From Sulfurimicrobium sp. (GTDB lineage Bacteria; Pseudomonadota; Gammaproteobacteria; Burkholderiales; Sulfuricellaceae), in the NCBI GenBank assembly GCA_030652035.1, contig JAUSBJ010000035.1, positions 124,001 through 188,000 of the forward strand: a stretch of 64,000 bases of DNA, in the 5' to 3' direction. The notes beneath the pieces were generated by a model. That model did no database searches, had not been told where the DNA came from, and worked only from the letters and a program-made list of their open reading frames with translations. A program made the translations under genes and the position numbers. Of the stretch, positions 24,891 through 63,444 are shown in pieces (the stretch's first letter is position 1; every line of letters starts with the position of its first letter).

Positions 24891-26582
<1,692 letters not shown>

Positions 26583-29586: not shown

Positions 29587-29636
29587 GGTGTAGGGCGTGA
29601 GGGGTGAGGAGAAATACCCCTCCCCTGACCAATACC

Positions 29637-31393: not shown

Positions 31394-31430
31394 CATGCTC
31401 AAAGGCCACATCATAAAGAGGAGATCGACC

Positions 31431-47080: not shown

Positions 47081-48152
47081 CCCGCTCTCCGAGATACTGG
47101 AATATTTGCACCCGTTTGTTGTACGAGTCCGCGACGTAAATCCGGTCCTGCGCATCGATCAGCAACCCGGCCGGCAGCCAGAATTCCCCGGCATCCTGGC
47201 CAGAAGTCCCCCAGAACAACAGCAGTTTCCCGGTTTCATCAAACACCTGGATATTATCAAAACCTGCATCGGCGACGTACACATGCCCTTCGCTATCCAG
47301 CGCCACGCCCTTGGGAGCGGAAAAATCGCCAGAACCATCACCGTTTTTTCCGAAGACAGACACCAGTTGCCCCTCGGCATCGAATATCTGGATGCGCATA
47401 TTCATGCTGTCCGTGACCACCAGCCGCCCCTGGCGATCCAGCGTGGCGAAGGTGGGGAAGTTGAATTGCCCGCGTTCCACGCCACGGCTGCCGATCACGC
47501 TGCGTATTGTCCCTGAAGGCAGGTCAAGCACCTTTATATCGTGGGCAGGTGTATCCACCACGTACAAGCGCTGCCGCGCACGGTCGATTGCCAGTGCCGA
47601 AGGGCGCTTGAGCCAGGGGGTGGTAGCAAGCATGCGGTCAAATTCACCGTCTGGTCTGAACACGAAAATCTTGTTCAGTTCACCATCCGCGACATAAATA
47701 TTGTCCTGGCCATCCACCGCCAACCCAATGGGCAGGCGCATGGATTCCATGTCACTGCCACGCAAGTGGCTATATTCACCCTGTCGGCGGTCGAAAATGT
47801 GCACCCGCCCCCTCAGGGTATCCGCCACCAGCAGCCGGTCCCGGCCATCAACTGCCACGGCCATGGGGCGCGCCACCTGCTCGTCCGCCTCCTCTCCGCG
47901 AATGAAATCCCACACCTTGCGCCAGAAACCTTTTTTGCGCCCGATATCCTCCGGATTGGCAACCGAGCCAAGATAGCGGATACGCGGCTGCAGCGGCGGT
48001 GAGGGCCATACCAGATCTGGTGCCGCAGCAGTTTGCTCCTTCGCTTGCGGAACAGTCTCGGCAGGTGGGGCTTCTTCTGCTCTGAGAGGTGTCGCCGTCA
48101 GCAGCAAAGCAGCGGCGACAACCAGAATTTTCATAATCGCTTGATGTAACAT
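47073..48152 (-). CDS. Secreted NHL-repeat beta-propeller protein (first copy)
   Basis: A 359-residue exported protein (signal ILVVAAALLLTATPLRAEE). After about 70 residues it has six NHL repeats, seen as MAVAVDGRDRLLVADTLRGR, GLAVDGQDNIYVADGELNKI, ALAIDRARQRLYVVDTPAHD, FATLDRQGRLVVTDSMNMR, GVALDSEGHVYVADAGFDN and GLLIDAQDRIYVADSYNKR. Such propellers often accompany multiheme cytochrome loci. ATG at 48152 follows GGAGAAAA. It heads the operon with the small protein, 11-heme cytochrome and ResB/CcsA. Confidence 0.9.
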   Translation of the reverse strand: MLHQAIMKILVVAAALLLTATPLRAEEAPPAETVPQAKEQTAAAPDLVWPSPPLQPRIRYLGSVANPEDIGRKKGFWRKVWDFIRGEEADEQVARPMAVAVDGRDRLLVADTLRGRVHIFDRRQGEYSHLRGSDMESMRLPIGLAVDGQDNIYVADGELNKIFVFRPDGEFDRMLATTPWLKRPSALAIDRARQRLYVVDTPAHDIKVLDLPSGTIRSVIGSRGVERGQFNFPTFATLDRQGRLVVTDSMNMRIQIFDAEGQLVSVFGKNGDGSGDFSAPKGVALDSEGHVYVADAGFDNIQVFDETGKLLLFWGTSGQDAGEFWLPAGLLIDAQDRIYVADSYNKRVQIFQYLGERDE

Positions 48153-48320: not shown

Positions 48321-51300
48321 TTACCTGTATAGCATATGCTTTTTGCGTGAGGTTTCGCCATGATAATATTTGTAGCGAAACAGCGCATCCAGGCCGTGGC
48401 AATCGGCACACAGCGAAAAATCGCTGGTATTTCTCAGGAAACTGCTGCGCGCGTCGCCCTCGACATTCCGGCCTTCGCCTTCCTCGGCTTTGAGCGGACT
48501 CCACTGATGGGCATTATGGCAAGTCGGGCAGGAGATGATGCCTGAGCCGCTGCGAACGCCATCGGGGGTATATACCGGAAAACTCCCGCCGCCCTCGCGT
48601 TGGCTGCCGGGATTGGAAATCACGTTGACCTTGGCCGGGTGGCTGCCCTTGACCGGCAGCTTGGCTGCGGCCACTTTGCCTGCGGCATGGCAGGAACGGC
48701 ACAGTCGTTCCATGGCATCATTGCCCTCTCCCGTCTGACGCGCCCACAGGCGCTCCTTGGCCACCGCATTATGCACCACGTGGCACTGTCCGCACACGCC
48801 GGATTGCTGCGTGTTCTGGCCGCGGATGTTGGTTTCCGCCGGCGCTGTGACGGAAAGATCGTGGTCCGTTTTTTTCACCTGCTGCTTGTTCTGGTGGCAG
48901 TTGGCACAGAGCTGGGGGGCAGGCCAGGCAGGCTGGCGCAGGAAACTGTCGGCTGCGCCGCCCTCCACATCGGCTTTTGCCCCGGCCTTGCTGCCGACAT
49001 CTGCAGGATCCCACTGGTGCAGGTTATGGCAGGTGGCGCAGGCAACCTTGCCGTTGACGTTATCCTTTTTACCTTCGGCGGTGTAAAGCGGCAGCGTGGT
49101 CTTTCCTCCGACATTCTTCAAGTCCACGCGTAGCGGATGGCTGTTGGCGCCGGTCTGTTTTTTCTCCGCCACGCCGCCGTCGCGGTGACATTCATTGCAC
49201 AGCACCTCGACGCCGTCCTGGCCAGGGCCGGTAGCGCGCGCCCACATTTTAGCGCCGTTGCCATTGTGCGGCAGGTGACAGGAGCCACATACGCCGGTTT
49301 CCGCCGTGGTCCGTCCCTTGGCGTTTTTCACCTCGGGCGCGGAAATGGCGAGATTGTGCTTGGACAGGGCGATCGGCCCCTTGTCCACATGACAGTTGGC
49401 GCACAAGGTCCCTTTGCTGTCGTTCGGCATGCGCAGGAAGCTGGTATCCCCCGTGCCCTTGGACTGGCGGGGGTCGCCGGATGGACTGCCCTTGGCCAGC
49501 GGCGACCAGTTATGGGGGTCGTGGCAGGTGCCGCAGAATACACTGCCGCCATCGGCCGCAGGCACCCCGCGATGATCGTACAGGGGCAGCACCTTGCCAG
49601 GCTGGCCAACGCTTTGCGGCGGCACAGTCCACTTCCCGTCCTTTGCCGTAATGCCGATATTGGCGATAGGCACATCCAGCGGATGGCTGTTGGCTCCAAT
49701 GGTTTTATCCTTTGCCACGCCCTGTGCGTTATGGCAACTCAGGCAGGTAGAAGAAACAGGGTCCACCCCGGCCAGCGGTTCACGCGCCCACATGCGTGCG
49801 CCCTTGCCGTTGTGGGGCAGGTGACAACTCGCGCAGACGCCGGTTTCGGCAGGCGTCTGCCCCTTGATATTGCGTTCTTCCGGTGCCATGACAGCCAGAT
49901 CGTGCTTGGTGTTGACGACGCCAAGCTTGTTTTTGTGGCAGGTCAGGCACAGGTCAGCCTCCGGGCCATTGGGCTTGCGCAGGAACTTGTTGCTGCCATC
50001 GCTATCTTCGCCCGGTTTCGAGGTTTTTTCCGGGTTGAGCGGGTCCCACTGGTGCGGATCGTGACAACTGGGGCAACTGATCCGCCCCTTGCTGTCGCCC
50101 ACTGACTTGACGCCATCCCGAGTATAGCCCGGCAGATCCACCGTCCCGCCCAGCCGCGCCATGTCGCGGCCCACCGGATGGGTATGCTGGCCGACTTGCT
50201 TGTCCTTGGCCAATCCGCCCTCGGTGTGGCAGGTCAGGCACAGATCGGCTACCGGGTCATCGCCTTGCTTCACCGTACGCGCCCACATTTTCGGCCCCTG
50301 CCCCCCATGCGGCAGATGACAGGCACTGCACACACCTGCCTGGCCCACTTCCTGGCTGCGTACATTCTTGTCTGAGTTATTGACCAGAGTCATGTCGTGC
50401 TTGCTGCTCGCCACCCGGCGCTGCTCGATGTGGCAATTCTGGCACAACTGGGATTGAGGATTGCGTTCCACCAGAAGCTTGCCCCCGTCCTCTGAAAAAT
50501 GCGGCTTGTGGCAAGTCTGGCAAATCACGGTGCCGCCCTCTCCCAGCTTCGCGCCCTTATCCAACAGGGTTTGGGGTATTTTCACCTTGTCGGGGCGAAT
50601 GTTGACCGGATGAGTGCCCATGCGTCCGGCCTCGGCGGGCGTATTGGCGTAGCGATCGGCATGGCAGATGCCGCACAGTTCCGAATTGGCATTTCTTACC
50701 AGCAGCTGTTTCTTCTCGGGAGCACCGTGGACGCGGTGGCAGGACTGGCAGATCACAGTGCCGCCGATTCCGATTTTCGCACCAGCCTCCATCAGCGCGT
50801 GTGGGGTGTCCTTCATTTTCTTTTGTATCGGATGGTTACCCTCTTCCGGTCCGGTGCCGCGTTCCAGGTGGCAGGCCATGCACATGGCGGAATCGGCATT
50901 TTTCATGCGCATGAACACGGTGGCATGCTTATCCCCCCACGCCACCCCATGCGCACTATGGCAGGTGCCGCAATACACCTTCCCATCCTCGTTGAGCGGA
51001 AACACCATCTTGCCCTCGGCCGTGGGAATTTTCACCTTGTCGGACGGCTTGACGCCGATGGGGTGAAAATTCTGTCGATTTTGCCATGCAAACCGGGAGT
51101 CAAGCACGAAGCCATCATGGCAGGAAAAGCACATGCGATCGGTGCTCACCACATCCTGCTTGCCGGTTGCTTCCACCGGCCTGGGGTTGTATGCGATCAG
51201 CGGTGTTACATCCTTGCGGTTGAAATCGACCAGCCATGCGATGTGGCAGTTGGCGCATTCACGCTGGGGGGAAATATCTCGCGCCGCCTCAGCGCCACGC

Positions 51301-51383
51301 ACCATGCCGAACATGAACATGAACATCAGCGCCAGTTGCATTGCCAGTCCAGCGCCGCGACTCCCTTTCAGACGAATGAACAT
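48321..51383 (-). CDS. 24-heme secreted cytochrome c with tandem tetraheme repeats
   Basis: A 1020-residue exported protein (signal AMQLALMFMFMFGMVRGAEA) with 24 CXXCH motifs. The first eight lie in an N-terminal part with two copies of GGTVIC..CH. Four tetraheme repeats follow, starting near residues 352, 517, 699 and 864. Each has GVC.(A/S/Q)CH(L/V)(P/V)H(G/N), then (L/T)C..CH, then SCP/GTCH.PH.W.PL, then LC..CH...KHDL. ATG at 51383 follows GGAG at eight bases; an upstream in-frame extension has no signal peptide. It lies 135 bp after the triheme B gene, probably the same operon. It could form a long haem wire. Confidence 0.93.
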   Translation of the reverse strand: MFIRLKGSRGAGLAMQLALMFMFMFGMVRGAEAARDISPQRECANCHIAWLVDFNRKDVTPLIAYNPRPVEATGKQDVVSTDRMCFSCHDGFVLDSRFAWQNRQNFHPIGVKPSDKVKIPTAEGKMVFPLNEDGKVYCGTCHSAHGVAWGDKHATVFMRMKNADSAMCMACHLERGTGPEEGNHPIQKKMKDTPHALMEAGAKIGIGGTVICQSCHRVHGAPEKKQLLVRNANSELCGICHADRYANTPAEAGRMGTHPVNIRPDKVKIPQTLLDKGAKLGEGGTVICQTCHKPHFSEDGGKLLVERNPQSQLCQNCHIEQRRVASSKHDMTLVNNSDKNVRSQEVGQAGVCSACHLPHGGQGPKMWARTVKQGDDPVADLCLTCHTEGGLAKDKQVGQHTHPVGRDMARLGGTVDLPGYTRDGVKSVGDSKGRISCPSCHDPHQWDPLNPEKTSKPGEDSDGSNKFLRKPNGPEADLCLTCHKNKLGVVNTKHDLAVMAPEERNIKGQTPAETGVCASCHLPHNGKGARMWAREPLAGVDPVSSTCLSCHNAQGVAKDKTIGANSHPLDVPIANIGITAKDGKWTVPPQSVGQPGKVLPLYDHRGVPAADGGSVFCGTCHDPHNWSPLAKGSPSGDPRQSKGTGDTSFLRMPNDSKGTLCANCHVDKGPIALSKHNLAISAPEVKNAKGRTTAETGVCGSCHLPHNGNGAKMWARATGPGQDGVEVLCNECHRDGGVAEKKQTGANSHPLRVDLKNVGGKTTLPLYTAEGKKDNVNGKVACATCHNLHQWDPADVGSKAGAKADVEGGAADSFLRQPAWPAPQLCANCHQNKQQVKKTDHDLSVTAPAETNIRGQNTQQSGVCGQCHVVHNAVAKERLWARQTGEGNDAMERLCRSCHAAGKVAAAKLPVKGSHPAKVNVISNPGSQREGGGSFPVYTPDGVRSGSGIISCPTCHNAHQWSPLKAEEGEGRNVEGDARSSFLRNTSDFSLCADCHGLDALFRYKYYHGETSRKKHMLYR

Positions 51384-51518
51384 GCATCGCTCCGCAATCT
51401 GGGCACGGAAACCCGATTCGCCAGTATTTCCGCCCCAGCCATACCTTTGCCGGCCTGGAGGCGCAAGGCCCATGGCACCCATCTCCCGGCTACCTGGCGC
51501 AACACATCACGACCCACC

Positions 51519-52607
51519 TTACGGCGCCGTAGCTGCCTTGGGTGGCGTATCGAAGGCGTTGCGCCACCAGCCGCGCGGATCACGCTTCATTTCCTCAGCC
51601 GAGGGTTCCGGCGCCTTCTCGGACGTGCCAAACAGGACCCCCTGGCGGGACTTGCTGGCATCATCAAGGAAAATGGTAGGGATGTAGAATTCCTTGTACT
51701 TCTGCGTGATACCGATGATGTTCACATTGGTCAGAGCAGAGATGCGTTTATCGGAAAAACCAAGTGCGCGGAATGGCAAGAAACTTTCCTTCTCGGGGGC
51801 GTGGCAACGGGTGCAGAAGCGTCCAACTGGGTTCACCTGGCTATGGAAGGCTTTCTTGATCGACCCCATGTCCTGGTCGGAAAGCTGACTGCGCAGCTTG
51901 ACGAATTCCTGCGCTTCAGGCGCATCCTCGGTGATCTCCAGCAAAGCCTCCCGCCCGTTGATATTGGAATAGGCCACCACCTTGGAGTAGAAATCGTCGG
52001 TCTCGAGCAGGAAACCTGTCGCCGGGTCAACATCCAACCCGTATGGCTTGCCCTTCACCTCGATTCCCGAATAGTTGAGCCAGCGTAGAGTCATGGAGCT
52101 TTCCGGCACCTTGCGGTCGTCGGTATGGCAGGTCATGCAGCCAATGAATTGGGTGTGCATATTGAGCAGGGTACGTATCATCGGCTTTTTCGCGTGCGGA
52201 TATTCGCTATGGCAGGTATAGCAGATCGGTCGTTTCCCCAGTGTCAGGGGGTCGACCTTGGGCAAATTGTGGAAGTGCTTGATTTTTTCCTTCTGCCGCT
52301 CAATATCCAGCCTTTCCAGAAGCTTTGGCGCCTCGGGCTCTTTTTCCTGGCCTCCGCCCATCATGGAATAGACGGATGAGGCAAGCAAAACGGCAATGAT
52401 GATCCACAACAGAAAAGACACCATCCACGCCCAGATCGGGTGGTTGCGGCGCAGGCCGGAAATACTGAAGATGTCTCGCCTGATCTCGCCCGGGATGCGT
52501 GCCTTGTGGTCAATAATGATCAGCAGCGCGATGGCAAAGAGGAGGAACATCACCACTGCCAGCGCAATAAAATAACTATCGAGTTCAACGGTATGATGCA
52601 TGGTCAA
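51519..52607 (-). CDS. Triheme membrane cytochrome c (module B)
   Basis: A 362-residue protein with two N-terminal helices (LDSYFIALAVVMFLLFAIAL and WAWMVSFLLWIIIAVLLASS) and a periplasmic domain carrying CYTCH, CMTCH and CTRCH. A conserved C-terminal motif, LGFSDKRISALTN....YKEFYIP, also occurs in the module A and C trihemes. It is the last member of octaheme B-cytochrome b-small protein-triheme. Its likely role is handing electrons from the cytochrome b to soluble cytochromes. Confidence 0.9.
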   Translation of the reverse strand: MTMHHTVELDSYFIALAVVMFLLFAIALLIIIDHKARIPGEIRRDIFSISGLRRNHPIWAWMVSFLLWIIIAVLLASSVYSMMGGGQEKEPEAPKLLERLDIERQKEKIKHFHNLPKVDPLTLGKRPICYTCHSEYPHAKKPMIRTLLNMHTQFIGCMTCHTDDRKVPESSMTLRWLNYSGIEVKGKPYGLDVDPATGFLLETDDFYSKVVAYSNINGREALLEITEDAPEAQEFVKLRSQLSDQDMGSIKKAFHSQVNPVGRFCTRCHAPEKESFLPFRALGFSDKRISALTNVNIIGITQKYKEFYIPTIFLDDASKSRQGVLFGTSEKAPEPSAEEMKRDPRGWWRNAFDTPPKAATAP

Positions 52608-52622
52608 TCCTTAAAATAATCA

Positions 52623-52739
52623 TCAGCCCTGGGTCAACAGCAGCCAGATGGCGTATAGCCCGAAAACGGTCCACGCCAGCACAAACACCAGCGAACCGTA
52701 AGCCAAAACTTTCTGCCAGGGTTTAAGCTCGGCTCTCAT
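52623..52739 (-). CDS. Small 38-residue single-helix membrane protein (module B)
   Basis: A 38-residue frame encoding MRAELKPWQKVLAYGSLVFV followed by LAWTVFGLYAIWLLLTQG, a single membrane helix after a short charged start. It lies between cytochrome b (stop 52779) and the triheme gene (start 52607). Small single-helix subunits are common in cytochrome b complexes. A comparable gene does not fit in modules A (15-bp gap) or C (overlapping genes). The ribosome site is weak (GCGAGCT). Confidence 0.55.
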   Translation of the reverse strand: MRAELKPWQKVLAYGSLVFVLAWTVFGLYAIWLLLTQG

Positions 52740-52778
52740 AGCTCGCGATATCCGGCGTTATTATCAACATGTTTATTT

Positions 52779-53696
52779 CTAATCATGAGGTTGTGTCCCC
52801 CACATTTTTTTGCTCTCGATCAGTTTCCTGAGATAGCTGCGCTCCTCAGGCATGGTCACGATACAGCGCAGATATTCGAGAAAATGCTCCTCGATCTGGT
52901 GTTCACGCGTGATTTTTCCGGTGAGGAAGGTCCATTGCATGGGGAAGCGTCCAGGTGCCAAATGGACGTTGTACCAATGCCAGAATGCGATCACCAGCAA
53001 GGCAAGCAGGGCTTCATGGGGATGGGATAGGCGCATCATTTCCTGAAAGTGCGACGCCATCTCCACCGGCAGAATGCTGGCCCAGACATCGGGAAACAGG
53101 AAGGTCGATCCGGAAATCACCATCACCGTGTTGCCGAAACCTGCAGCAAAATAGTGAATTTTCTGCTTGTACATGAATTTGTCCATTTCCGGACGTACTG
53201 GGCGCTTGCCTCTGAAAAACTGCATATCCTCCTTGAAATCGCGAATGTCCTTCCATACCGGCAGGATGGTGCGCCGCAATTCAAATACGCGGGCACGCAG
53301 CTTCAACAGCGAGCCAAGACCGATGGTGACAAAGTGATAAAGCATGGCAAAAATCATGGCTGCTGCGAGCGTGCGATGTATCACCCGCGTCACTTCCAGT
53401 CCACCCAGCACAGAGTTGAACGGTTCTGCCCAGAAAGCGGTGTTGTAGTGGATAGGCAAGCCAGTAAAGGCCAGCAACAGGAAAGTACTGAAAATCAGCA
53501 AATGCTGAATGCGGATATGGATGTTGTAGCGGTAGAAATCGCCAATCGGGTTCGAATCCACATTTTTGTATAGCACCGAGCGGTCATCCGGCAACAGTGC
53601 GACCACTTCTTCAATATCGCGATCCTCCTCCGGACTCACCCTGTTGTGGCGCTTTGCGGTGTCCAGCACCTCGCGTGCTTCTTGTGATAATTTCAT
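52779..53696 (-). CDS. Four-helix cytochrome b (module B)
   Basis: A 305-residue membrane cytochrome b of the FdnI/HydC (b561-like) type. Four helices are seen with His ligand candidates in RIQHLLIFS, VIHRTLAAAM..LYHF and HPHEALLALLVIAFWHWYNVH. It has about 60 extra N-terminal residues compared with the module A and C copies, and no Cys-rich domain. In such complexes quinol is oxidised at the membrane and electrons are passed to c haems. It follows the octaheme B gene after a gap that holds a REP-like sequence. Confidence 0.9.
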   Translation of the reverse strand: MKLSQEAREVLDTAKRHNRVSPEEDRDIEEVVALLPDDRSVLYKNVDSNPIGDFYRYNIHIRIQHLLIFSTFLLLAFTGLPIHYNTAFWAEPFNSVLGGLEVTRVIHRTLAAAMIFAMLYHFVTIGLGSLLKLRARVFELRRTILPVWKDIRDFKEDMQFFRGKRPVRPEMDKFMYKQKIHYFAAGFGNTVMVISGSTFLFPDVWASILPVEMASHFQEMMRLSHPHEALLALLVIAFWHWYNVHLAPGRFPMQWTFLTGKITREHQIEEHFLEYLRCIVTMPEERSYLRKLIESKKMWGTQPHD

Positions 53697-53757
53697 GTTC
53701 TACGTGTCCTTATGCGTCATAAGCTTTAATAATTCTGAACTATCTGGCGAACCTGCC

Positions 53758-53857
53758 GTAGGTCGGGCTTTCCCGCCAGCGCAAGCTGCTTTGCTGCCGC
53801 TGGCGGCGAGTGCACGACTGAGGGCCCACCCGGCTCTCGGGGCAAATCCCGATCTAC
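53758..53857. repeat. Dispersed REP pair between octaheme B and cytochrome b
   Basis: GTAGGTCGGGCTTTCCCGCC at the left and CCCGATCTAC at the right are inverted copies of the RAYT-linked REP end sequences, enclosing inner palindromes such as CCGCCAGCG/CGCTGGCGG. This shows that the RAYT-type REP has spread beyond its own locus. It sits inside the module B operon and may reduce or stabilise part of the transcript. Confidence 0.7.
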
Positions 53858-53863
53858 CTGCTA

Positions 53864-54976
53864 TCAGGGAAGGCGGTTGCTATTGCGCCGGGTGCGCCGC
53901 CACCACGATGATCCATCACGGAAGCGCCAGCTTACGCCATCCCGTAGACGCCCCCAGGTTTCGAATGCGGCCATCCCCACCAGCAATAGCAGTACGCTAT
54001 CGCCCACGATGGTATAGATCAGCTCGGCATAATGCTTGAAGGGGTTATCCTCCCTCTTGCTGGTGGGATGCGGATCGAGCTCGGCATAGTTCTTGTCGGC
54101 TCTGACGTGGCACTGCTTGCAGGTCTCCACCCGGTTCTCAGCACTGACCGGTGAGTTCGGGTCCCGCGAAGGCAGCAATTCATGCACGCTGAGATAGTAA
54201 TTCACGGTTTTTGCATGACAATCCAGGCAGTTGGCCGCCTTGGTATTGCCATACTTGGTCACCTTGCCGTGAAAGCTTTCCTCGTAGGATTCGATCGCGA
54301 AAGGGAATTTCCGGCCGAGCTCGCGTCCCTCTTCTTTGGCCGCTTGCTGGTGACGATCCAGCATCTGCTTGTCGGCATGGCACGATGAGCACATTGCGAC
54401 GATTTCCTGGGACGAACGCTTGACCTCACGAATGCGTCGGCTGGTGTGGTTGTACCACTTCTCAGCAAATTTGGCATCCTCGTGGCAGACCACGCAGCGG
54501 TCAATGATGTGCTTGGGAGGTTTATCCTCCTTGGCGTTGTAGAGCGGGTTGGTATGGCAGTTGACGCAATAAGGCTTGTCGGCGTCATTGCCCTTGGCGA
54601 TTTTTTCCCGGCCATGGACGCTTTTCTTAAAGGCATCATAAATTGGTTTGTGGCTGAACGGCTTGCCGGTGGCAGGATTTTTGATCGAATGGCACTCTGC
54701 GTTGCAGGTCACACCTTCAGTAACGGGCTTGTGCGGCAACTCCTTGATGTAACTGTGGCAATCGCGACAAGGCACATTACGGTGCACGGTTTTTGAAAAA
54801 ACGTTCGGCATAATATAGTACGTTTTTTGCAAACCATCTTCGGTAACACGCCCCATTTTCGGGTATTTGTGGCACATCAGGCAGGCCTCGTCATCCTCGA
54901 AAGCCAAAGCCGCCCCGGCATACCCCAGAAACAGGGATAACATGCCCGCAACGCACCATCTGATAAGCATCTCCAT
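53864..54976 (-). CDS. Octaheme cytochrome c, membrane-tailed (module B)
   Basis: A 370-residue exported protein. Haem motifs in order: CLMCH, CRDCH, CNAECH (CX3CH), CVNCH, CVVCH, CSSCH, CLDCH and CKQCH. A C-terminal helix (LIYTIVGDSVLLLLVGMAAF) anchors it. Shared family segments are GKPFSHKP and YEESFHGKVTKYGN before haem 7. Unlike the module A and C copies, its eighth motif is ordinary CX2CH. The gene leads the module B set. Confidence 0.92.
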   Translation of the reverse strand: MEMLIRWCVAGMLSLFLGYAGAALAFEDDEACLMCHKYPKMGRVTEDGLQKTYYIMPNVFSKTVHRNVPCRDCHSYIKELPHKPVTEGVTCNAECHSIKNPATGKPFSHKPIYDAFKKSVHGREKIAKGNDADKPYCVNCHTNPLYNAKEDKPPKHIIDRCVVCHEDAKFAEKWYNHTSRRIREVKRSSQEIVAMCSSCHADKQMLDRHQQAAKEEGRELGRKFPFAIESYEESFHGKVTKYGNTKAANCLDCHAKTVNYYLSVHELLPSRDPNSPVSAENRVETCKQCHVRADKNYAELDPHPTSKREDNPFKHYAELIYTIVGDSVLLLLVGMAAFETWGRLRDGVSWRFRDGSSWWRRTRRNSNRLP

Positions 54977-55496
54977 CCTCTTTATCCTTTTATTATTTCT
55001 GCAACCTGATCCAACGCCGTTCAGTCATTCGAGTCCAAGGACAGTCCGGTTAACCACGATCTAATGATGGTCTTTTGGCCGAGCAAAATCGACGACTACC
55101 GCGTAGTGCAGAGATCTCAATTCAAACCCTTATACCCATGCTTTAAACTACTCGCACTGCGATACAGCCACATTCAAACACATTCCTGACCAACAGCTTG
55201 GGCAAGCAGTTGACTGCCCACCCCATGCAGGATGTCGGCTTGGTTTCGCGCCATCAAAGCTCCGGCATCTTTCGCGAATAGCTGCAAATTGTCAATAATT
55301 GACACAGCGCGATTTATGCAAATGCCCTTTGCCTGCCACCTTCTTCAAACACACGAGCCACCCTATGTCGGCTTATTGTATCGCACGATCAGGTGCGGCA
55401 TTCGGGTTATTCTTACCCATCGGAGATAACCTTCATTTGCCACCGCTCATCAGGTCATTACCGGAAGATTTTTTTGCCTCATCGGGTCTGGAATGG
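54977..55496. other. Intergenic region upstream of module B
   Basis: About 520 bp with no convincing gene on either strand. It probably holds the module B promoter. A perfect 15-base palindrome lies at 55290-55304. No FNR-type box of TTGAT-N4-ATCAA form is present, unlike upstream of module A. Confidence 0.5.
55290..55304. promoter_or_regulatory. Perfect 15-base palindrome, operator candidate
   Basis: TGTCAATAATTGACA is a perfect palindrome about 315 bp upstream of octaheme B. Read on the minus strand it contains TTGACA followed 17 bp later by AAAGAT, a weak promoter pair. It is a plausible regulator site, but the regulator is unknown. Confidence 0.4.
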
Positions 55497-55537
55497 CAAA
55501 AAGCAAATAGGTGCTTCAATACGCACCCATTTGCTTA
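55497..55537 (-). terminator. Intrinsic terminator after module A
   Basis: AAGCAAATAGGTGC and GCACCCATTTGCTT form a 14-bp stem with one mismatch and an eight-base loop. On the minus strand it ends in CTTTTTGCC. It closes the module A operon, whose last gene stops at 55560. Confidence 0.82.
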
Positions 55538-55559
55538 ATACCGGTCCGGCACCTGATAC

Positions 55560-56531
55560 TTACTTTGCTTTCGATGTTTCGGCCCAATCCACCTTCGGGT
55601 CCGAAGATTGCCCCGGTTTACCCCTCCCTCCCTCTGACCAGGCCGCGCCTGTGCCCGGCAGCAGGAACTTGGGAATATGGAAATCGCTGTATTTATGCAA
55701 CATTCCCACAACCTCGGTATTGGTCAGTTGCTGTATCCGGCGCGGCGGATAACCGAGTTCTGCAAATGGAATATATGGCGTCTGCGATGAAGTATGGCAG
55801 CCGTCGCACAAAAGCGGCTTCTCATCCACCATGCGGTGAATCACTTTCTTCATCTTGGACTGCTCGGTGGTGCTGAGGCCTTCCTTGTTTTTCAGGTAGT
55901 CCGTTACGAATGCTCTTTCACGCTCCCCATTCAGGAAGCGGAAACTGCCATCGGCTGCCAAGGTTCCCGGTGCAATCTTGGTTCCATAGTTGCCATATTT
56001 CTCCTTTTCAGTTGCGACCAGCTCCGGAGGATTGGCCACTACCTGACCATTTGCCTTGTCATACCAACGGAACGCCCACGGTCCCTGATTCGGTTTCTGC
56101 CGAATGTGGCAGGTTTCGCAGGCAACGAAAAATGCATGCATATTCAGAAAGGCGCGTATGGGCTTCGACTTGTCATGAGGCACTGCACCATGGCAGCGCG
56201 TGCACACATTGGTTTCGTCAGGTTCCACCAACATCCCGATATGGTGGAAGTGGCCCTTCACGTACTGTTCTTTCACGACGGTATAACCGAGGTCTGTGGT
56301 GGCCGTCGCTTTCTGTTCCTTCATGACCTTCTTCAACGCCTCTTCTTCAAATGACGCTGCTTCGGGTGATTTAACCGTGGTGCCAAAAACCTGCACTTCC
56401 GCCGGCGGTTCTTCATGATGATCCGCATGGCTGAAGATAATCGGGTAAATGAAATTACCGTACCATAGCGCGAAAACGATCAGGGCGATTGCGTAGAGCT
56501 TGCCTATAAGTTTTTTGAATCGACTATACAT
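55560..56531 (-). CDS. Triheme membrane cytochrome c (module A)
   Basis: A 323-residue protein with one N-terminal helix (LYAIALIVFALWYGNFIYPI) and three haem motifs CTRCH, CETCH and CDGCH. The conserved C-terminal motif is LGYPPRRIQQLTN....YSDFHIPK, as in modules B and C. GGAGAAATAT precedes the start. It is the last gene of octaheme A-cytochrome b-triheme, ended by the terminator at 55497-55537. Confidence 0.9.
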   Translation of the reverse strand: MYSRFKKLIGKLYAIALIVFALWYGNFIYPIIFSHADHHEEPPAEVQVFGTTVKSPEAASFEEEALKKVMKEQKATATTDLGYTVVKEQYVKGHFHHIGMLVEPDETNVCTRCHGAVPHDKSKPIRAFLNMHAFFVACETCHIRQKPNQGPWAFRWYDKANGQVVANPPELVATEKEKYGNYGTKIAPGTLAADGSFRFLNGERERAFVTDYLKNKEGLSTTEQSKMKKVIHRMVDEKPLLCDGCHTSSQTPYIPFAELGYPPRRIQQLTNTEVVGMLHKYSDFHIPKFLLPGTGAAWSEGGRGKPGQSSDPKVDWAETSKAK

Positions 56532-56546
56532 ATATTTCTCCGGCCC

Positions 56547-57347
56547 TTAGTGGTGCTGAGGCTTGATCTCGTCCTGCAGGCCTTGTTCTGTCATGATCCG
56601 CACATATTCCGCATAATGCTCGTGAATCATGTCGGCTTCAGTGAGATATCCGGTAATGAACACCGTCCCCAAGGGAAACTTTTCGGGCGAGTAATGCACG
56701 TTGTACCAATGGACGAAGAACAGGAACAGCGCCGCCAGCAAGGCTTCGTCGGTATGCATGATGTAGAAGGCGTTCATCGCGATGCCGGGAAGGATGTGGC
56801 TGAACTCATCCCGCCACCAGAGAACGAAACCTGCCGGCCCCAGGATGGGTATGCCCCAGTAAGGCGCGTAGTAGTCGAACTTCTCCTTCCAGGACATGCG
56901 GTCATAGCGCGGCGGCCGGTTAGTGAAATACAACAGATACTTGAACATATCGATCAGGTCGTAGAAGTCTTTCTTGTTCGGGACCATCTCCTGGGCCAGG
57001 AATTCCCTGCCAATATTGCCCAAAGTTAGACGCCCTTCCTTCTTCAGTCGCAGCACCCGCCGGGTATAGAACAGATACATCCAGTAAATGGTGTGGTAGA
57101 CGAACAAGCCGAGCAATATGGATCCGACGATACGGTGAATCGTCGGCGCATGATCAATCCCGCCCAATGCGTTATAGATGGGCTCCGCCCATGGCTGATC
57201 GTGGTATTTCAGCGGGAACCCGGTTAACGACAGCGTGATCACCGTAGTGAACAAAACAATGTGCTGCAAACGTTGATGGAGCGAGAACCGGTAGAAATAT
57301 CTCCGCCCGTTTCTTTCACATATTATCGGATATTTTGGCATGGCCAT
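56547..57347 (-). CDS. Four-helix cytochrome b (module A)
   Basis: A 266-residue membrane protein with four helices and His in FSLHQRLQHIVLF, IHRIVGSILLGLFVYHTIY and HTDEALLAALFLFFVHWYNVH. The C-terminal HWYNVHYSPEKFP followed by EHYAEYVRIM is shared with module B and C cytochromes b. A longer TTG start at 57353 is possible. The gene lies 38 bp after octaheme A. Confidence 0.9.
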   Translation of the reverse strand: MAMPKYPIICERNGRRYFYRFSLHQRLQHIVLFTTVITLSLTGFPLKYHDQPWAEPIYNALGGIDHAPTIHRIVGSILLGLFVYHTIYWMYLFYTRRVLRLKKEGRLTLGNIGREFLAQEMVPNKKDFYDLIDMFKYLLYFTNRPPRYDRMSWKEKFDYYAPYWGIPILGPAGFVLWWRDEFSHILPGIAMNAFYIMHTDEALLAALFLFFVHWYNVHYSPEKFPLGTVFITGYLTEADMIHEHYAEYVRIMTEQGLQDEIKPQHH

Positions 57348-57385
57348 TTTCAAGTAACCCTCAATCAGTTCACATTTACGACATG

Positions 57386-58456
57386 TTATTTGGAGGAGTG
57401 GTGATCATCATCCGGCGGCTTCCTGAAAGAGAAGTTCGGAAAGAGCCTCCTCAGCAGTTCCAGAATAATGAGAACCATGAAGAAGTACATCACGCCCGCC
57501 ATTAACGCCGTGAAAAACTTCAACATGTAATGCTGCAAGGGGTATTTGTCCTTGTCATAGGTGACATGAACCTGGAAACCGGCCAGTTTCGGGCCTGCTT
57601 TCTCATGGCACTCGGAGGTACGGCAGGTCGTCGGAACATTCTGCTTGTTGCTGGCCGATGTCGGGGAGTCCTGACCCTCGATGAAGTGCACGCTCTCACC
57701 CTTGACCACGTGGCAATCCATGCAGTCTGGCGTTTCCTCTGAGCCAAAGCGAATCGCCTTATAGTGGAATGTTTCCTTGTAGGAGGTGACTACATCGTCA
57801 AGATCGTGCCGCTGCTGGAACCCCTTGTCGCCGTGGCATTTGGCGCAGATACCCACAATTTCTGTCGGCTTGCGCATTTTTTGCAGGCGCGAGGTTACGT
57901 GTTTGTAGAAGGATTCAGCGAAATTACCCGTGCTGTGACAGGTCTTGCAGCGACTGAGCCCTCTCTCGGATATTCCAGGGGCCTTGCCTTTGAAAAAGGA
58001 TAAGGGGCGGTACAAAGGCTCTTCGTGGCAATCCTTGCAGCCGGGGTAGTCCTGCTGGTGCTCCTTGGCATTGCCTTCAGCATCAAGCTTGCCGTGAACA
58101 CTCTTGGCCAACAAATCCGCCACTGGCTTATGAGAGAATTTTTTCTGACCTGACGGCTCGGTCAGGTGGCACTCGGTGGTGCAGTCCACTTTCTTGGCGG
58201 GATCGTGGGGGATCTTGCTGATATCCTGATGACAATCCATACACTTCACCCGGACATGAGGGCCCTCCTCAAACAACGCTTCGTTGATGTAAAACAGACG
58301 GAAATTGCCGTTTTCATCAATGCGGCTCAAGCCTCGATGCTTGTGGCAGAGAACGCAGTTCAGTTCGTCCTCGGCATAAGTTTCCCCTCCCGCCCCGAAA
58401 AGAAGCAAGGCAGCGAAAAACAAAATCACACGAGTTTTGAATGATGACTTACCCAT
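57386..58456 (-). CDS. Octaheme cytochrome c, membrane-tailed (module A)
   Basis: A 356-residue exported protein (signal VILFFAALLLFGAGGETYA). Haem motifs in order: CVLCH, CMDCH, CTTECH (CX3CH), CKDCH, CKTCH, CAKCH, CMDCH and CRTSECH (CX4CH). The C-terminal helix is FFTALMAGVMYFFMVLIILE. ATG at 58456 has AAGG at eight bases; ATG at 58462 is the alternative. A perfect FNR-type box lies about 209 bp upstream. Confidence 0.92.
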   Translation of the reverse strand: MGKSSFKTRVILFFAALLLFGAGGETYAEDELNCVLCHKHRGLSRIDENGNFRLFYINEALFEEGPHVRVKCMDCHQDISKIPHDPAKKVDCTTECHLTEPSGQKKFSHKPVADLLAKSVHGKLDAEGNAKEHQQDYPGCKDCHEEPLYRPLSFFKGKAPGISERGLSRCKTCHSTGNFAESFYKHVTSRLQKMRKPTEIVGICAKCHGDKGFQQRHDLDDVVTSYKETFHYKAIRFGSEETPDCMDCHVVKGESVHFIEGQDSPTSASNKQNVPTTCRTSECHEKAGPKLAGFQVHVTYDKDKYPLQHYMLKFFTALMAGVMYFFMVLIILELLRRLFPNFSFRKPPDDDHHSSK

Positions 58457-58829
58457 TGACATGGCCTTATATTTTTTGGTCTCTTTTTTAGTTGAACTCG
58501 TGCTGCATGCGCGTGCATGACGGTCCAACACTACCCTGGCGATGCCGCTTCAGGGTTCAAACCCGCCAACTACCGCACACTCCAAGCACCGCCAACCTGC
58601 CCGCCAGTACACCGCATAAAGGCGCATCCAGTTTATTCGGGCACTCCCTATAAACAACTTGATGTAGATCAATAATTCTAAACAATGGGATCAGAAGATC
58701 ATATTGTCTTAATAAAAAACAAGCAAGTCCTTACTCTTCACCATTCCCTTATGCAGTGACGATGAAATAACAAAAATCAATAAAGAACACTTCAGGCGGC
58801 GCTGCTATCCACCGTAATCAGCGCAAATG
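58457..58829. other. Intergenic region upstream of module A
   Basis: About 370 bp with no gene. It holds a perfect FNR-type box (58659-58672). The stretch from 58670 to 58790 is AT-rich, and the part from 58500 to 58630 would form the module A leader. No recognisable riboswitch consensus was found. Confidence 0.55.
58659..58672. promoter_or_regulatory. Perfect FNR/DNR-type box upstream of module A
   Basis: TTGATGTAGATCAA matches TTGAT-N4-ATCAA at every defined position. It lies in the long intergenic region before octaheme A, about 209 bp from the start codon, which implies a long leader or a promoter further from the gene. Confidence 0.8.
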
Positions 58830-59177
58830 TCAAAATGTTAAATACACAATACTCACCAGCATGGCAAAAAGCATGGCCCAGCCGACTAGCACCACAAGCA
58901 CACCAAAAAAACTGCCTGCTTCATTCTCTCCATTCGTGGTCATGCCCACGAAACTGCCAATCTCGATGCCGTACCAAATACAGCCGAGTGGAAGAACCAC
59001 AACGACGACGGAAAGATGAAAGGCTTCGCTACTCCCGAAAAAGAAAGCGATGGCCAAACAGGCAATCGCCACCAGAAGTGACGCCACTCGGCCAACTTCA
59101 GCCTTCACATCCACCACCTTCAAACAACCCTCGCTTGAATCCCGCACCCGGCAACACCCCATCCAAAGCAAAACCAT
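58830..59177 (-). CDS. Small three-helix membrane protein, unknown
   Basis: A 115-residue protein with three hydrophobic helices (VASLLVAIACLAIAFFFG, LSVVVVVLPLGCIWYG and FGVLVVLVGWAMLFAMLVSI) and no recognised domain. Codon use is slightly more AT-rich than in the cytochrome genes. It lies between module A and module C, facing away from the NHL gene. The start could be internal, since the first 20 residues are Cys-rich and polar. Confidence 0.6.
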   Translation of the reverse strand: MVLLWMGCCRVRDSSEGCLKVVDVKAEVGRVASLLVAIACLAIAFFFGSSEAFHLSVVVVVLPLGCIWYGIEIGSFVGMTTNGENEAGSFFGVLVVLVGWAMLFAMLVSIVYLTF

Positions 59178-59235
59178 TGAAAGAAACGTTCGAAGCGAGC
59201 TATTGACAACAACGATCTGGCCTATATCATATACC

Positions 59236-59273
59236 CATTAGTTTTACTGATCCATAACATTAGTTTTACTGAT
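59236..59273. repeat. Tandem pair CATTAGTTTTACTGAT
   Basis: CATTAGTTTTACTGAT occurs at 59236-59251 and 59258-59273, with a 22-bp period, about two turns of the DNA helix. It lies about 150 bp before the NHL gene of module C, a plausible regulator site. Confidence 0.5.
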
Positions 59274-59418
59274 TGTTAGTCATTCAATGGAACCAGCCCT
59301 TGTTTTCACCCTATCGCCCTGTTCACCCCCTCACAAATTGAGTACGATAACCAGAAACAGACGCGATGCGAGTTAGAACCACGCATAGCTTGGCAGGCAT
59401 GGAATTTTTGGAAACAAG

Positions 59419-60405
59419 TTGATGAGGGCAGGAATGCAGAAGATAAGTGGGTTTGGCATGCGTGTTTGGCATGCCGCATTTCGGCGATGTTCGCAATTAG
59501 GCATCACAACCCTACTGATTGTTTGGGCGGCCACATCAAGTGCTGCCGGCATACCCACCGCAGGCGTTCGCCATTTGTTCGACATCACCGGGCAGGGCGC
59601 TGGCGGACTATCGCTGCCGACCGACGTGGCAGTCAGCAGCGACGGCCGTATATTTATTGTAGATGGCGGCAACCATCGAGTGGTTGCTTTTGATCACAAT
59701 GGAAAATATCTCCTCACCATTGGCCGCAAGGGGTCTGGAGAGGGTCAGATGAAGGATCCAGTCGGCATCGGGGCCGATGGAAAAGGGCGTATCTATGTAG
59801 CCGACACAGGCAACCACCGCATCCAGGTATTCGCTTCAGATGGGCGATTTCAATATGCATTCCCGGTTGTCGAAAGTGGTCTGGCGATACGCCCTATAGA
59901 TGTAGCAACGGATGTCACGGGCACAAAGATTTTCGTGAGCGGCAACAATAATCACAAAATCATGGCATTTGCAGCGCCAGGCAGGCTTGTCGGCAAGTGG
60001 GGGGGGAACGGTGAGAGTGGAGGATTGTTCCGCTATCCTGCATCTGTTGCTCTATCCTCAGAAGGGGATGTCTATATAGCTGATGCGCTTAATTCCCGCG
60101 TGCAGGGATTCGACGAACTGGGTGCATTGCTTATTCAGGTTGGAGCCTGGGGCGTTCTCCCTGGCCAACTCTTCCGCCCCAAGGGCGTGGCTATCGACAG
60201 TAAACAAAACATCTACATCAGCGACAGCTATATGGATGTAGTTCAGGTTTATGACAGTGAAGGCCGATTCTTGCACGTTCTGGGCCAAGACGGTAAGCCG
60301 CAGCGATTTGTGTCCGCAGGCGGAATCGCCATCGGTAGCGACAACCGGCTTTACACCGCCGAGATTTTACGCAACAAGGTATCGGTCTATAGCCTGAATG
60401 ATTGA
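59419..60405 (+). CDS. Secreted NHL-repeat beta-propeller protein (second copy)
   Basis: A 328-residue protein with an N-terminal signal-like segment (LGITTLLIVWAATSSAAG). Six NHL repeats follow: DVAVSSDGRIFIVDGGNHRV, GIGADGKGRIYVADTGNHRI, TDVTGTKIFVSGNNNHKI, SVALSSEGDVYIADALNSR, GVAIDSKQNIYISDSYMDV and GIAIGSDNRLYTAEILRN. It parallels the NHL gene at 47.1-48.2 kb but is not identical. It lies upstream of module C in the same orientation, separated by a 319-bp structured gap. Confidence 0.88.
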   Translation: MMRAGMQKISGFGMRVWHAAFRRCSQLGITTLLIVWAATSSAAGIPTAGVRHLFDITGQGAGGLSLPTDVAVSSDGRIFIVDGGNHRVVAFDHNGKYLLTIGRKGSGEGQMKDPVGIGADGKGRIYVADTGNHRIQVFASDGRFQYAFPVVESGLAIRPIDVATDVTGTKIFVSGNNNHKIMAFAAPGRLVGKWGGNGESGGLFRYPASVALSSEGDVYIADALNSRVQGFDELGALLIQVGAWGVLPGQLFRPKGVAIDSKQNIYISDSYMDVVQVYDSEGRFLHVLGQDGKPQRFVSAGGIAIGSDNRLYTAEILRNKVSVYSLND

Positions 60406-60724
60406 AACCGCGGGATCTGCTCCTTCAATCCAGGGCAAACCGCATCAAGCTGGCAATAACGAAACTCTATAGTCTATAAATCGAAATGAGGCGCACAAAC
60501 GAAAACTGAAGTGGATTAATATGTCACATAATAGGATATTGGGAGCTTTTTATTCACGATATTATCGCCGATTGGCGGCGTGCAAGGCACGCAACCGATC
60601 GGCCAAAGAAGCAATCAGGAAAAGACAGTTCGGCTGCCTGGCAGCCGGATGTGGCAGAGATGGGCGGGACGGATTTGCCTACTTCTGGTCGGCAAAATCC
60701 GTCTGATGGCATAGAGGGCAACAG
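60406..60724 (+). other. Structured leader region upstream of octaheme C
   Basis: 319 bp without a convincing gene. Three strong hairpins lie in a row: CCGATTGG/CCGATCGG with inner GCGTGC/GCACGC (60568-60602), CGGCTGC/GCAGCCG (60631-60647) and GACGGATTTGCC/GGCAAAATCCGTC (60668-60703). The last ends 21 bp before the start codon. This could be a regulatory leader RNA or an internal transcription stop after the NHL gene. No T-run follows the last hairpin. Confidence 0.5.
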
Positions 60725-61939
60725 ATGAAGCACCAATCACAAAACAACAAACCGGTCATGCTCTTTGGCAGGCAAGGAAGAGCATGGACATTTTTTGCAG
60801 GTATTGCCACTGTATTGGCAATGCTGTCGACTTCAGGATTTGCGTCGACTGTCTCGGCGCCTACGCCAGGATTCTTAAATCCGAATCAGGCGGTTCCTGC
60901 GCCCAGCGTTCAGGTAGCCGTCCCCAAAGGGCAGGATGGCTGCCTCTTATGCCACAAGTATCCTGGCTTGGGGCGCTATGATAAGGATGCAAGAAATCGG
61001 ATCGTAAAGCGGGTTTTTTACGTCAACGAGGATACCCACAACGCCTCTTACCATGGCAGATTCAACTGCTCGGATTGCCACGAAGGCGTGGACAAAATCC
61101 CCCATACGGACGCGAAAAAAGTGGATTGCGGCAAGACCTGCCACCTCAACGAACCCTCCTCCGGCAAGAAGTTCTCGCACAAGGCTATTGTGGATGATCT
61201 GGAGAAAAGCGCTCACGGAGCAAAAGGCGCCGGCGCAGAAAACCAGTCTGACTTGCCTGCTTGCAGGGACTGCCATACGAACAAGCCCTATCTGCTCAAT
61301 CTTCAGCAACAAATGAAGTCGAAAGCGTCCATGCAGATTTGCCACCAGTGCCATGAAGATAAAGCATGGATTACCCGCTTCCTGAGCCACATCGATTACC
61401 GCCTTTCAAGCCGGCGCCCTTCGTCCGAAGTGGTCAGGCTATGCAGCAAATGCCACGCCAATCCGAGCATGATGGCGAGACACAAGCTGGATGTGGTGGT
61501 TGGATTTCAGGACACCTACCATGGCAAGGCGATCCTGTACGGGGATGAAGAAGTGGCTAACTGCCTGAACTGCCATGCGCCCTATGCGCTGGGGTTTTCA
61601 CCTCACAAGATCACGGCGCACAAAATGAAGGAATCGCCGGTCAACGCCGATAACAAGCGTGAAACCTGCGCACAGGCGGGCTGTCATGCCTCTGCGACGA
61701 ATGAGTTTGCCACGGGCAGCAAGGCGCATGCTTCCCAGCTCAAGGCAGTTCTCGAGACCAAGGGTGGCAACGCGGGCACCGATGCGGTGCTAGAGGACGA
61801 GGCCTTCCAGACCATGGTATTGCACTGGATCAACCTCTTCTATCAGATTCTCATCGCGGGGGTAGTTCTCGGACTTGGCGGTCACAGGTTGCTGGATCTT
61901 TATGCGACATACCGGGACAGTAAAAAAGGAGGTCATTGA
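60725..61939 (+). CDS. Octaheme cytochrome c, membrane-tailed (module C)
   Basis: A 404-residue exported protein (signal FFAGIATVLAMLSTSGFAS). Haem motifs in order: CLLCH, CSDCH, CGKTCH (CX3CH), CRDCH, CHQCH, CSKCH, CLNCH and CAQAGCH (CX4CH). The C-terminal helix is WINLFYQILIAGVVLGLG. Shared segments are GKKFSHK and DTYHGKAILYGD, matching modules A and B. It starts module C, with cytochrome b one base after its stop. Confidence 0.92.
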   Translation: MKHQSQNNKPVMLFGRQGRAWTFFAGIATVLAMLSTSGFASTVSAPTPGFLNPNQAVPAPSVQVAVPKGQDGCLLCHKYPGLGRYDKDARNRIVKRVFYVNEDTHNASYHGRFNCSDCHEGVDKIPHTDAKKVDCGKTCHLNEPSSGKKFSHKAIVDDLEKSAHGAKGAGAENQSDLPACRDCHTNKPYLLNLQQQMKSKASMQICHQCHEDKAWITRFLSHIDYRLSSRRPSSEVVRLCSKCHANPSMMARHKLDVVVGFQDTYHGKAILYGDEEVANCLNCHAPYALGFSPHKITAHKMKESPVNADNKRETCAQAGCHASATNEFATGSKAHASQLKAVLETKGGNAGTDAVLEDEAFQTMVLHWINLFYQILIAGVVLGLGGHRLLDLYATYRDSKKGGH

Positions 61940-61940
61940 G

Positions 61941-62672
61941 ATGGGCGGGCACGGCAACAATGAAAGAGCCTTCGTTCGGCTTACCAAGAGCGAGAGGATT
62001 CAACATGTCATTCTCTTCGTCTCCACAGGTTTGCTGATCCTGACAGGGTTCATGTTAATGGGCGAAGTATGGGCCATCAAGCTGTTCGGCTCAGCAGGGA
62101 AAAGCATCTTCTACTGGCGCGGAATCATTCACCGCGTCGCTGCCGTAGCGGTCACTGCGGTATGCTTCTATCACCTCTATTACGTTCTATTCAAGACCGA
62201 TGGCAAAAGTTGGATCCGCGCCATGCTGCCCAGATTGAAAGACGGGGTGGACGCTTACCAGAACGTCATGTACATGCTGGGCAAGCGGGATGAGCGACCC
62301 AAAATGGATCGATTCACCTACCTTGAAAAACTGGAATATTTTTCCGTCTATTTTGGCATGTTCATCGTTATCAGCACCGGCACCATGATGTGGACGCAAT
62401 CCTACTGGCCGAAATTCTACCTCGACGTTGCCGACGCGCTGCATTTGGGAGAGGCCACCCTGGCCGCACTGGCGATTATCGTTGGCCATATATTTACGGT
62501 TCATTACAACCCGCATGTCTACCCGATGAACAAGGCCTTTATCGACGGAAACATATCGGAAACGATGATGAAGGAAGAGCATTCGCTTTGGTACGAACGA
62601 ATCATTGCGGAAGAGGCCTCCAAATCAGCGAACACAGCGCACGCCACCGAAGGAGGGCATAGCAATGCATAA
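61941..62672 (+). CDS. Four-helix cytochrome b (module C)
   Basis: A 243-residue membrane cytochrome b with four helices and His in SERIQHVILFVST, IIHRVAAVAV..FYHLYYV and LGEATLAALAIIVGHIFTVHYNP. Family tail motifs are VHYNPHVYPMNKAF and EHSLWYE. AAGGAGG lies eight bases before the start. It is the shortest of the three copies. It overlaps the triheme gene by 8 bp. Confidence 0.9.
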   Translation: MGGHGNNERAFVRLTKSERIQHVILFVSTGLLILTGFMLMGEVWAIKLFGSAGKSIFYWRGIIHRVAAVAVTAVCFYHLYYVLFKTDGKSWIRAMLPRLKDGVDAYQNVMYMLGKRDERPKMDRFTYLEKLEYFSVYFGMFIVISTGTMMWTQSYWPKFYLDVADALHLGEATLAALAIIVGHIFTVHYNPHVYPMNKAFIDGNISETMMKEEHSLWYERIIAEEASKSANTAHATEGGHSNA

Positions 62673-63444
62673 AGACAGCGGCGCAAGCGTTCCGAAAAGG
62701 CTCCTCGTCCATCTAGTGATGCTCACGATAGGCATTCTGCTGGTATCCTTCTCCATCTGGCTGATCTATCTGACTTATTTCAAAGGCACGCATCGCGCTG
62801 AGGAGGCTCTGGCGAAAAAGGCTGTTCCACGGCAAGAGATGCTTTACGAGTCCTTCCACGGCATCGACGAGTCAATACAGGCTGGAAGCAAGTCGAAATC
62901 GTGGTGTCTGAAGTGCCACGAAGATTTGTCGCACTCGAAATCCAAGGAAGTAAGAGGGATGCTCAACGCCCACTCGTTCTTCCTGGCCTGCGAGGTTTGC
63001 CACATCGCCCCCAAGGCAGGCGAAAAGTTTGAATACAAATGGCTGCAGCGCGGCTCCAATACCCCCCTGACCGCCCTGAAAGGCCAGCCGGGAGATTATG
63101 GCGGAACGATCATTCCATTCAGGATAGAAAATGGCGTCCCCAGGCGCCTGGATGAAAACCAGGAAGCGCTGCAGTTCCTGGATGAATCTGCGTCCAAGGA
63201 CAGCGACGGAGACAACGAAAAGCGCAAGATGCGCCTTAACACGGACATTCATAAGGAATTCTCGCCCAAACCCATATTTTGCGATGAATGCCACAGGGAA
63301 AACGGTCCGCTGAATTTCGTGCAACTCATGTATTCGCCACAAAGGGCACAGCTCCTGACATTTGGCGAAGGCGCGAATGTCATCAAGCAATACAAGGACT
63401 TTTATCTGCCATCGCTCATGCGCAATGCCCGGAGCGAGCGCTAA
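62665..63444 (+). CDS. Triheme membrane cytochrome c (module C)
   Basis: A 259-residue protein with one N-terminal helix (LVMLTIGILLVSFSIWLIYL) and haem motifs CLKCH, CEVCH and CDECH. The family motif MYSPQRAQLLTF....YKDFYLP lies at the C-terminus. The shortest of the three trihemes. ATG at 62665 follows AGGAGGG and overlaps the cytochrome b stop. It ends module C. Confidence 0.9.
   Translation: MHKDSGASVPKRLLVHLVMLTIGILLVSFSIWLIYLTYFKGTHRAEEALAKKAVPRQEMLYESFHGIDESIQAGSKSKSWCLKCHEDLSHSKSKEVRGMLNAHSFFLACEVCHIAPKAGEKFEYKWLQRGSNTPLTALKGQPGDYGGTIIPFRIENGVPRRLDENQEALQFLDESASKDSDGDNEKRKMRLNTDIHKEFSPKPIFCDECHRENGPLNFVQLMYSPQRAQLLTFGEGANVIKQYKDFYLPSLMRNARSER

Follow-up and report, generated by a model that had tools for sequence, protein, structure and literature searches.

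Three modules, each encoding an octahaem cytochrome, a cytochrome b and a trihaem cytochrome, lie close together in the 3.27-Mb genome of Sulfurimicrobium sp., within the 64-kb window (the whole stretch of 64,000 nucleotides that was analysed). They are probably isoforms of a quinone:multihaem cytochrome oxidoreductase linked to an extracellular-electron-transfer wire. I infer the assembly, the quinone activity, the link to extracellular electron transfer and the division of labour, with a probability of about 0.7 for the reading. Module B spans positions 51519-54976, module A 55560-58456 and module C 60725-63444; B and A are on the minus strand, and C is on the plus strand, divergent from B and A. 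Each module has, in its own direction, the gene order octahaem cytochrome, cytochrome b, trihaem cytochrome. All nine genes were found where a first-pass annotation of the window had placed them, on the same strands. The genes of the locus are listed below.

42856-44882, minus strand: CcsA-like (42856-43656) and ResB-like (43629-44882) genes, system II cytochrome c maturation
44904-46907, minus strand: 11-haem cytochrome (undecahaem), UetJ-like by haem count only
47073-48152, minus strand: NHL beta-propeller protein
48321-51482, minus strand: 24-haem Paired_CXXCH cytochrome, a candidate periplasmic wire
51519-52601, minus strand: module B trihaem cytochrome, 360 aa, two predicted N-terminal TM helices
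52779-53696, minus strand: module B cytochrome b, 305 aa, FdnI/Ni_hydr_CYTB type, with an N-terminal extension
53864-54976, minus strand: module B octahaem cytochrome, 370 aa, haem 8 CX2CH, C-terminal TM helix, clade B
55560-56531, minus strand: module A trihaem cytochrome, 323 aa, N-terminal TM anchor
56547-57341, minus strand: module A cytochrome b, 264 aa
57386-58456, minus strand: module A octahaem cytochrome, 356 aa from the ATG at 58456, haem 8 CX4CH, modelled with AlphaFold
58830-59177, minus strand: 115-aa hydrophobic protein, found in close relatives only
59419-60405, plus strand: NHL beta-propeller protein, directly upstream of module C
60725-61939, plus strand: module C octahaem cytochrome, 404 aa, haem 8 CX4CH
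61941-62672, plus strand: module C cytochrome b, 243 aa
62665-63444, plus strand: module C trihaem cytochrome, 259 aa, its start overlapping the b gene by 8 nt

Haem motifs were tallied as CX2CH, CX3CH or CX4CH. By this count, the octahaem cytochrome has eight motifs and the trihaem cytochrome three in each of B, A and C, and the third motif of every octahaem is CX3CH. A hydrophobic helix is found at the C-terminus of each octahaem and at the N-terminus of each trihaem (two helices in the trihaem of B). This is the architecture that the first-pass annotation had described, and the difference that it had noted in the eighth haem, CX2CH in B and CX4CH in A and C, was also seen by motif count. 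The paralogues share 31-36% identity among the octahaems (E 1e-53 to 1e-60), 28-33% among the cytochromes b (E 1e-22 to 1e-38) and 23-32% among the trihaems (E 1e-16 to 1e-28). The paralogy of the three modules is far above chance. None of the nine module proteins reached a curated NCBIfam cut-off, and Pfam gave only general haem-cytochrome and Ni_hydr_CYTB matches for them.

Is the trio found in other genomes? About 85,000 species genomes were scanned with an octahaem alignment, which gave 79 loci; the window and one extra locus bring the set to 81. The seed of the scan was of type A (the clade of module A, see below), and genomes with only type B or only type C are under-sampled. There are 120 complete trios in the same order, and 75 of the 81 loci have at least one. 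Thus, the profile search across genomes, which had been suggested as a check, revealed that the trio is no local oddity. The median intergenic gaps within trios are 6 and 0 nt. A TM helix is predicted at the C-terminus of all 120 octahaems and at the N-terminus of 118 of the 120 trihaems. The carriers include Gammaproteobacteria (Sedimenticola and Thiodiazotropha), Gallionellaceae, Nitrospirota, Desulfobacterota and Verrucomicrobiota, and fused forms are found in Planctomycetota and Myxococcota. The nearest named relatives in the scan are a Nitrosomonadales MAG and a Sulfurimicrobium MAG. Within the genus, three of eight genomes have all three modules; elsewhere in the family, two of 14 genomes have two modules, and none of 39 genomes from the rest of the order has any. 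Among sampled genomes, the trio was found in 18 of 297 Desulfobacterota and five of 198 Nitrospirota (seed genome counted in both cases), and in the host only among 398 Pseudomonadota. The trio is rare and patchy, and is therefore no core respiratory complex.

The octahaem tree separates 70 rows of type A, 32 of type B and 16 of type C, plus two deep outliers. The cytochrome b and trihaem trees give the same A, B and C sets, no row being exchanged (clade support for A, B and C: 99, 100 and 99 for b; 98, 79 and 64 for the trihaem). The identical membership therefore indicates that the subunits have not been mixed between types, as expected of cognate complexes. No locus has two modules of one clade. 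Six loci have all three types, and in each of them A lies between B and C: the window, L023, two Thiodiazotropha loci, one of Desulfobacteraceae and one of a MAG labelled Deltaproteobacteria. A Gallionellaceae MAG carries all three modules. Haem 8 of the octahaem is CX4CH in 70 of 70 type A rows and CX2CH in type B, while the motif is expanded to CX8CH in the type C octahaems of Desulfobacterota and of one other locus. This is an unusually long putative haem-binding motif, kept in Desulfobacterota and related loci (e.g., CSNQGGMQVCH; type C octahaems of L049, L054, L058, L065, L071, L077, L080 and L083). Judging from the trees, A, B and C are three ancient types common to Beta/Gammaproteobacteria and Desulfobacterota, and their divergence is therefore older than the host lineage. 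It is reasonable to infer from this divergence, as the first-pass annotation did, that the three types may differ in redox potential or partners.

It was found that a single 965-aa myxococcal reading frame encodes octahaem, cytochrome b and trihaem with all 11 haem motifs. Four more myxococcal genomes have full-length octahaem-b-trihaem fusions (42-47% identity). There are also octahaem-b fusions (L084, L094, L101 and L100) and a b-trihaem fusion (L081); therefore, both junctions have been fused independently. The topology fits: a periplasmic octahaem, an anchor helix, a four-helix b domain, another anchor helix and a periplasmic trihaem. The single-protein fusions strongly support the view that the three subunits would form one complex. 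The AlphaFold model of the 965-aa fusion has a mean pLDDT of 70 and a pTM of 0.66. Its core, which begins at the last haems of the octahaem and includes the six TM helices, scores about 80-98, and the trihaem domain is of low confidence. Few sequences underlie this trihaem part, because separate trihaems were misaligned when added.

The cytochromes b of modules B and C match Pfam Ni_hydr_CYTB (PF01292), while that of module A scores 29.8 bits against a cut-off of 30.1, or 30.3 bits with its neighbours in the frame. In the structure-database searches, alignments found matches for the b subunit and the trihaem, and single sequences were useless for the octahaem and the b subunit. The invariant histidines H27, H69, H196 and H211 align with H18, H57, H155 and H169 of FdnI, the cytochrome b of formate dehydrogenase N (1KQF_C), which I take to be the b-haem ligands of that structure. 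The b domain of the fusion model matches FdnI with a VIA Z of 14.7 over 207 residues and the hydrogenase-1 cytochrome b (4GD3) with a VIA Z of 10.1. Thus, the likeness to FdnI lies in the fold and all four b-haem ligand positions, and the likeness to the hydrogenase-1 protein in the fold. The partners differ, however: a dehydrogenase or a hydrogenase in the known systems, and multihaem cytochromes in the trio. Fusions, perfect co-segregation and the four conserved FdnI ligand positions support the earlier proposal that each module specifies a membrane complex, with b haems in addition to 11 c haems.

In 29 diverse octahaem sequences, there are eight proximal histidines and exactly eight further invariant ones, a pattern largely upheld in 113 sequences. 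The eight extra histidines suggest bis-His electron-transfer haems and no catalytic site. The trihaem has three proximal and four further invariant histidines, which likewise points to bis-His haems for electron transfer. No useful match for the octahaem was found among solved structures by alignment, and Foldseek with the octahaem model gave no PDB match with E < 5. A second look with the model listed only HAO, octahaem nitrite reductase and NrfA-type chains at Z of 5.2 or less; the likeness is too weak to be of use (VIA Z of 5.2 for HAO and 4.2 for octahaem nitrite reductase, rmsd > 11). The trihaem profile matches octahaem tetrathionate reductase (OTR; 1SP3, TIGR04315) with an E of 4.6e-7, in three segments that align in order with the C-terminal half of OTR. 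In contrast to OTR, the trihaem has no N-terminal haems of that kind and is membrane anchored. The trihaems score 23-37 bits over part of TIGR04315, whose curated score is 375, and are thus no full OTR. Homology between octahaem and trihaem beyond the haem motifs was considered and is unsupported (18% profile probability, over 55 columns). None of the nine module proteins matches the NapC/NrfH/CymA domain PF03264, and the octahaem of module B scores 30.9 bits against the NrfH model, whose cut-off is 134.

The system runs past position 63444. The 24-haem and 11-haem cytochromes, NHL propellers and the ResB/CcsA maturation genes flank the modules, the 11-haem, ResB/CcsA and NHL genes lying on one side. 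On the other side, just past the window, there are genes for an 8-haem cytochrome, a PQQ propeller, a barrel-like, unannotated 613-aa porin candidate, a 4-haem cytochrome and an NHL protein. Homologues of the 24-haem cytochrome were found in 62 external loci, of the NHL propeller upstream of module C in 65, and of the 8-haem cytochrome in 43. The commonest downstream order, trihaem, NHL and 18-28-haem cytochrome, is seen in 57 of the 117 trios outside the window. In two examined loci of Nitrospirota, two modules each come with an NHL gene and an 18- or 20-haem cytochrome gene of their own. The neighbourhood looks like a full path from the inner to the outer membrane, its outer part being putative. 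No MtrB/PioB porin was recognised in the host genome at E 0.001.

Several other features of these loci may be recorded here. Candidate porins of a new conduit type, barrel-like and without a convincing Pfam match, are encoded at L014 3059-4900 (just past the window) and L043 16460-18613. They are weakly alike (E 5e-4) and adjoin tetrahaem, NHL and multihaem genes. The ResB/CcsA-like genes (42856-44882) are kept in the same genus and, apart from single CcsA-like matches, were not found in distant trio loci. Towards the C-terminus of the 11-haem protein (44904-46907), about 13 glycines follow one another. Signal peptidase S26-like genes were seen near the haem cluster (41308-42204) and, in Thiodiazotropha (L035 8757-9674), between modules B and A. 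At 14757-31913, the window also has a cluster for cd1 nitrite reductase, in which NapC and several cytochrome d1 proteins are encoded; the periplasmic nitrate reductase genes for NapA and NapB come next. A dsrA gene is present in the host genome.

In the proposed mechanism, each module would be one three-subunit inner-membrane complex. A four-helix dihaem b subunit of the FdnI type would exchange electrons with the quinone pool. The octahaem, whose anchor helix would lie against the b subunit, would form an 11-haem periplasmic relay together with the helix-anchored trihaem. The relay would give electrons to, or take them from, the 18-28-haem periplasmic cytochrome encoded next door, beyond which there may be an outer-membrane porin-cytochrome conduit. 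A, B and C would be ancient isoforms kept as separate units, probably with different partners or potentials. More tentatively, and with the odds somewhat against so specific a picture, the three might constitute an ancient, jointly inherited three-tier set of quinone oxidoreductases, each tuned to its own potential range or wire. Such a set would be a paralogue counterpart of ImcH, CbcL and CbcBA of Geobacter, and the block may have been passed between phyla together with its own haem wires.

Other explanations were weighed against the quinone:multihaem cytochrome oxidoreductase. Adjacency and a common gene order would suit redundant local duplicates with a gene-dosage effect. However, this is contradicted by the trees, in which the modules fall into three deep cross-phylum clades with no same-clade pair in any locus; the three diverged copies of the first-pass annotation cannot be taken for recent local duplicates, and the dosage explanation is scarcely credible. 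It is also highly unlikely that the octahaem or the trihaem is a reductase (of nitrite, hydroxylamine or tetrathionate) fed by the b subunit, and no relay. The weak fold likeness to HAO and octahaem nitrite reductase and the relationship of the trihaem to OTR speak for such a reductase. However, eight extra invariant histidines per eight haems leave no open coordination site, and the trihaem matches the C-terminal half of OTR only, while the active-site haem of OTR presumably sits in the N-terminal part, outside the match. Since the host and several carriers are sulfur oxidisers, the b subunit might handle a non-quinone substrate such as a sulfur compound, the module being a periplasmic sulfur-compound enzyme. 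This is very improbable: by Pfam, the module has no molybdenum, flavin or rhodanese subunit, and its conserved neighbours are large haem wires and propellers.

A further alternative concerns direction only and is compatible with the oxidoreductase reading. Electrons from extracellular or periplasmic donors may flow inwards through the haem wire to reduce quinone at the cytoplasmic side, in lithotrophy or reverse electron flow. I regard this as slightly short of an even bet. It would agree with the dsrA-type sulfur metabolism of the host and the nitrate and nitrite reductases in the same window, with the Gallionellaceae MAG that has all three modules, with the sulfur-oxidising Gammaproteobacteria among the carriers, and with FdnI, the closest solved b subunit, which reduces menaquinone. 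However, CbcL works outwards in Geobacter (PMC9129911), and outward flow is at least as plausible in the Desulfobacterota and Nitrospirota that have the trio. Because the carriers include lithotrophic sulfur and iron oxidisers as well as Desulfobacterota and Nitrospirota, the complex may oxidise quinol, as the first-pass annotation read it, or reduce quinone, and the direction may differ between lineages. If the quinone site is cytoplasmic, as it is in FdnI, energy would be conserved by inward flow and spent on outward flow.

The best understanding of extracellular electron transfer comes from a small number of Geobacter and Shewanella complexes. Inner-membrane quinone oxidoreductases are regarded as being among its best genomic markers (PMC12977616). 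The trio forms a family that spans several phyla; its haem signature is diagnostic, and its architecture can be tested. It is also a natural experiment, in which three isoforms on the same scaffold are never mixed and often adjacent, and A, B and C could reveal how the quinone chemistry of a cell is suited to acceptors or donors that differ in potential. The natural single-chain fusions make the complex accessible to structure work.

The trio had been supposed not to be a named complex, and it is apparently unnamed: no name was found in full-text searches of openly licensed papers. NetBCD, which I take to be of the NrfBCD type, was rejected as its name, since the trio has no iron-sulfur or NrfD subunit (none among the nine proteins by Pfam). 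NetBCD is an Aeromonas system (PMC9012536) listed alongside CymA, CbcL and CbcAB (PMC10553843). The PCC3/PCC4 inner-membrane proteins, with five helices and HX13H (PMC5566968), are of a different design and were also rejected. The Uet pathway of Tenderiales and Gallionella has 11-haem and tetrahaem cytochromes, a porin and NHL in one cluster. The genes beside the trio are comparable to it by haem numbers and gene types only, and Uet as described has no octahaem-b-trihaem module (PMC10734462).

CbcBA/Cbc5 (cbcEDCBA) of Geobacter resembles the trio in that b-type and several c-type cytochromes are encoded in one operon, and it is a proposed menaquinol:cytochrome c oxidoreductase; unlike the trio, it has, in its published description, three c cytochromes and an additional membrane protein (PMC11434368). 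Cbc4 (CbcSTU) likewise combines a cytochrome c with a b-type membrane subunit, but it has the iron-sulfur subunit CbcT (PMC11434368), which the modules lack. CbcL of Geobacter sulfurreducens has nine c haems and a six-helix dihaem b domain and passes electrons to the trihaem PpcA (PMC9129911). By its described design, CbcL would be the nearest functional analogue of the trio. Both combine a multihaem c part with a dihaem membrane b part of six helices, as seen for the trio in the modelled natural fusion and the four invariant ligand positions. In contrast to the single nine-haem polypeptide followed by a b domain, the window has eight haems and separate genes; the trio has an octahaem with CX3CH as its third motif and, mostly, CX4CH as its eighth, genes that are usually separate, and a dedicated trihaem subunit. 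CbcL-like fusions are numerous in Myxococcota (L118-L141). They contain 7 to 11 c haems and a b domain of the same type, and the last haems, the anchor and the b domain are common to them and the trio family. The best reading, placed by the published descriptions of CbcL and CbcBA, is that the trio would be a variant of the CbcL-type complexes.
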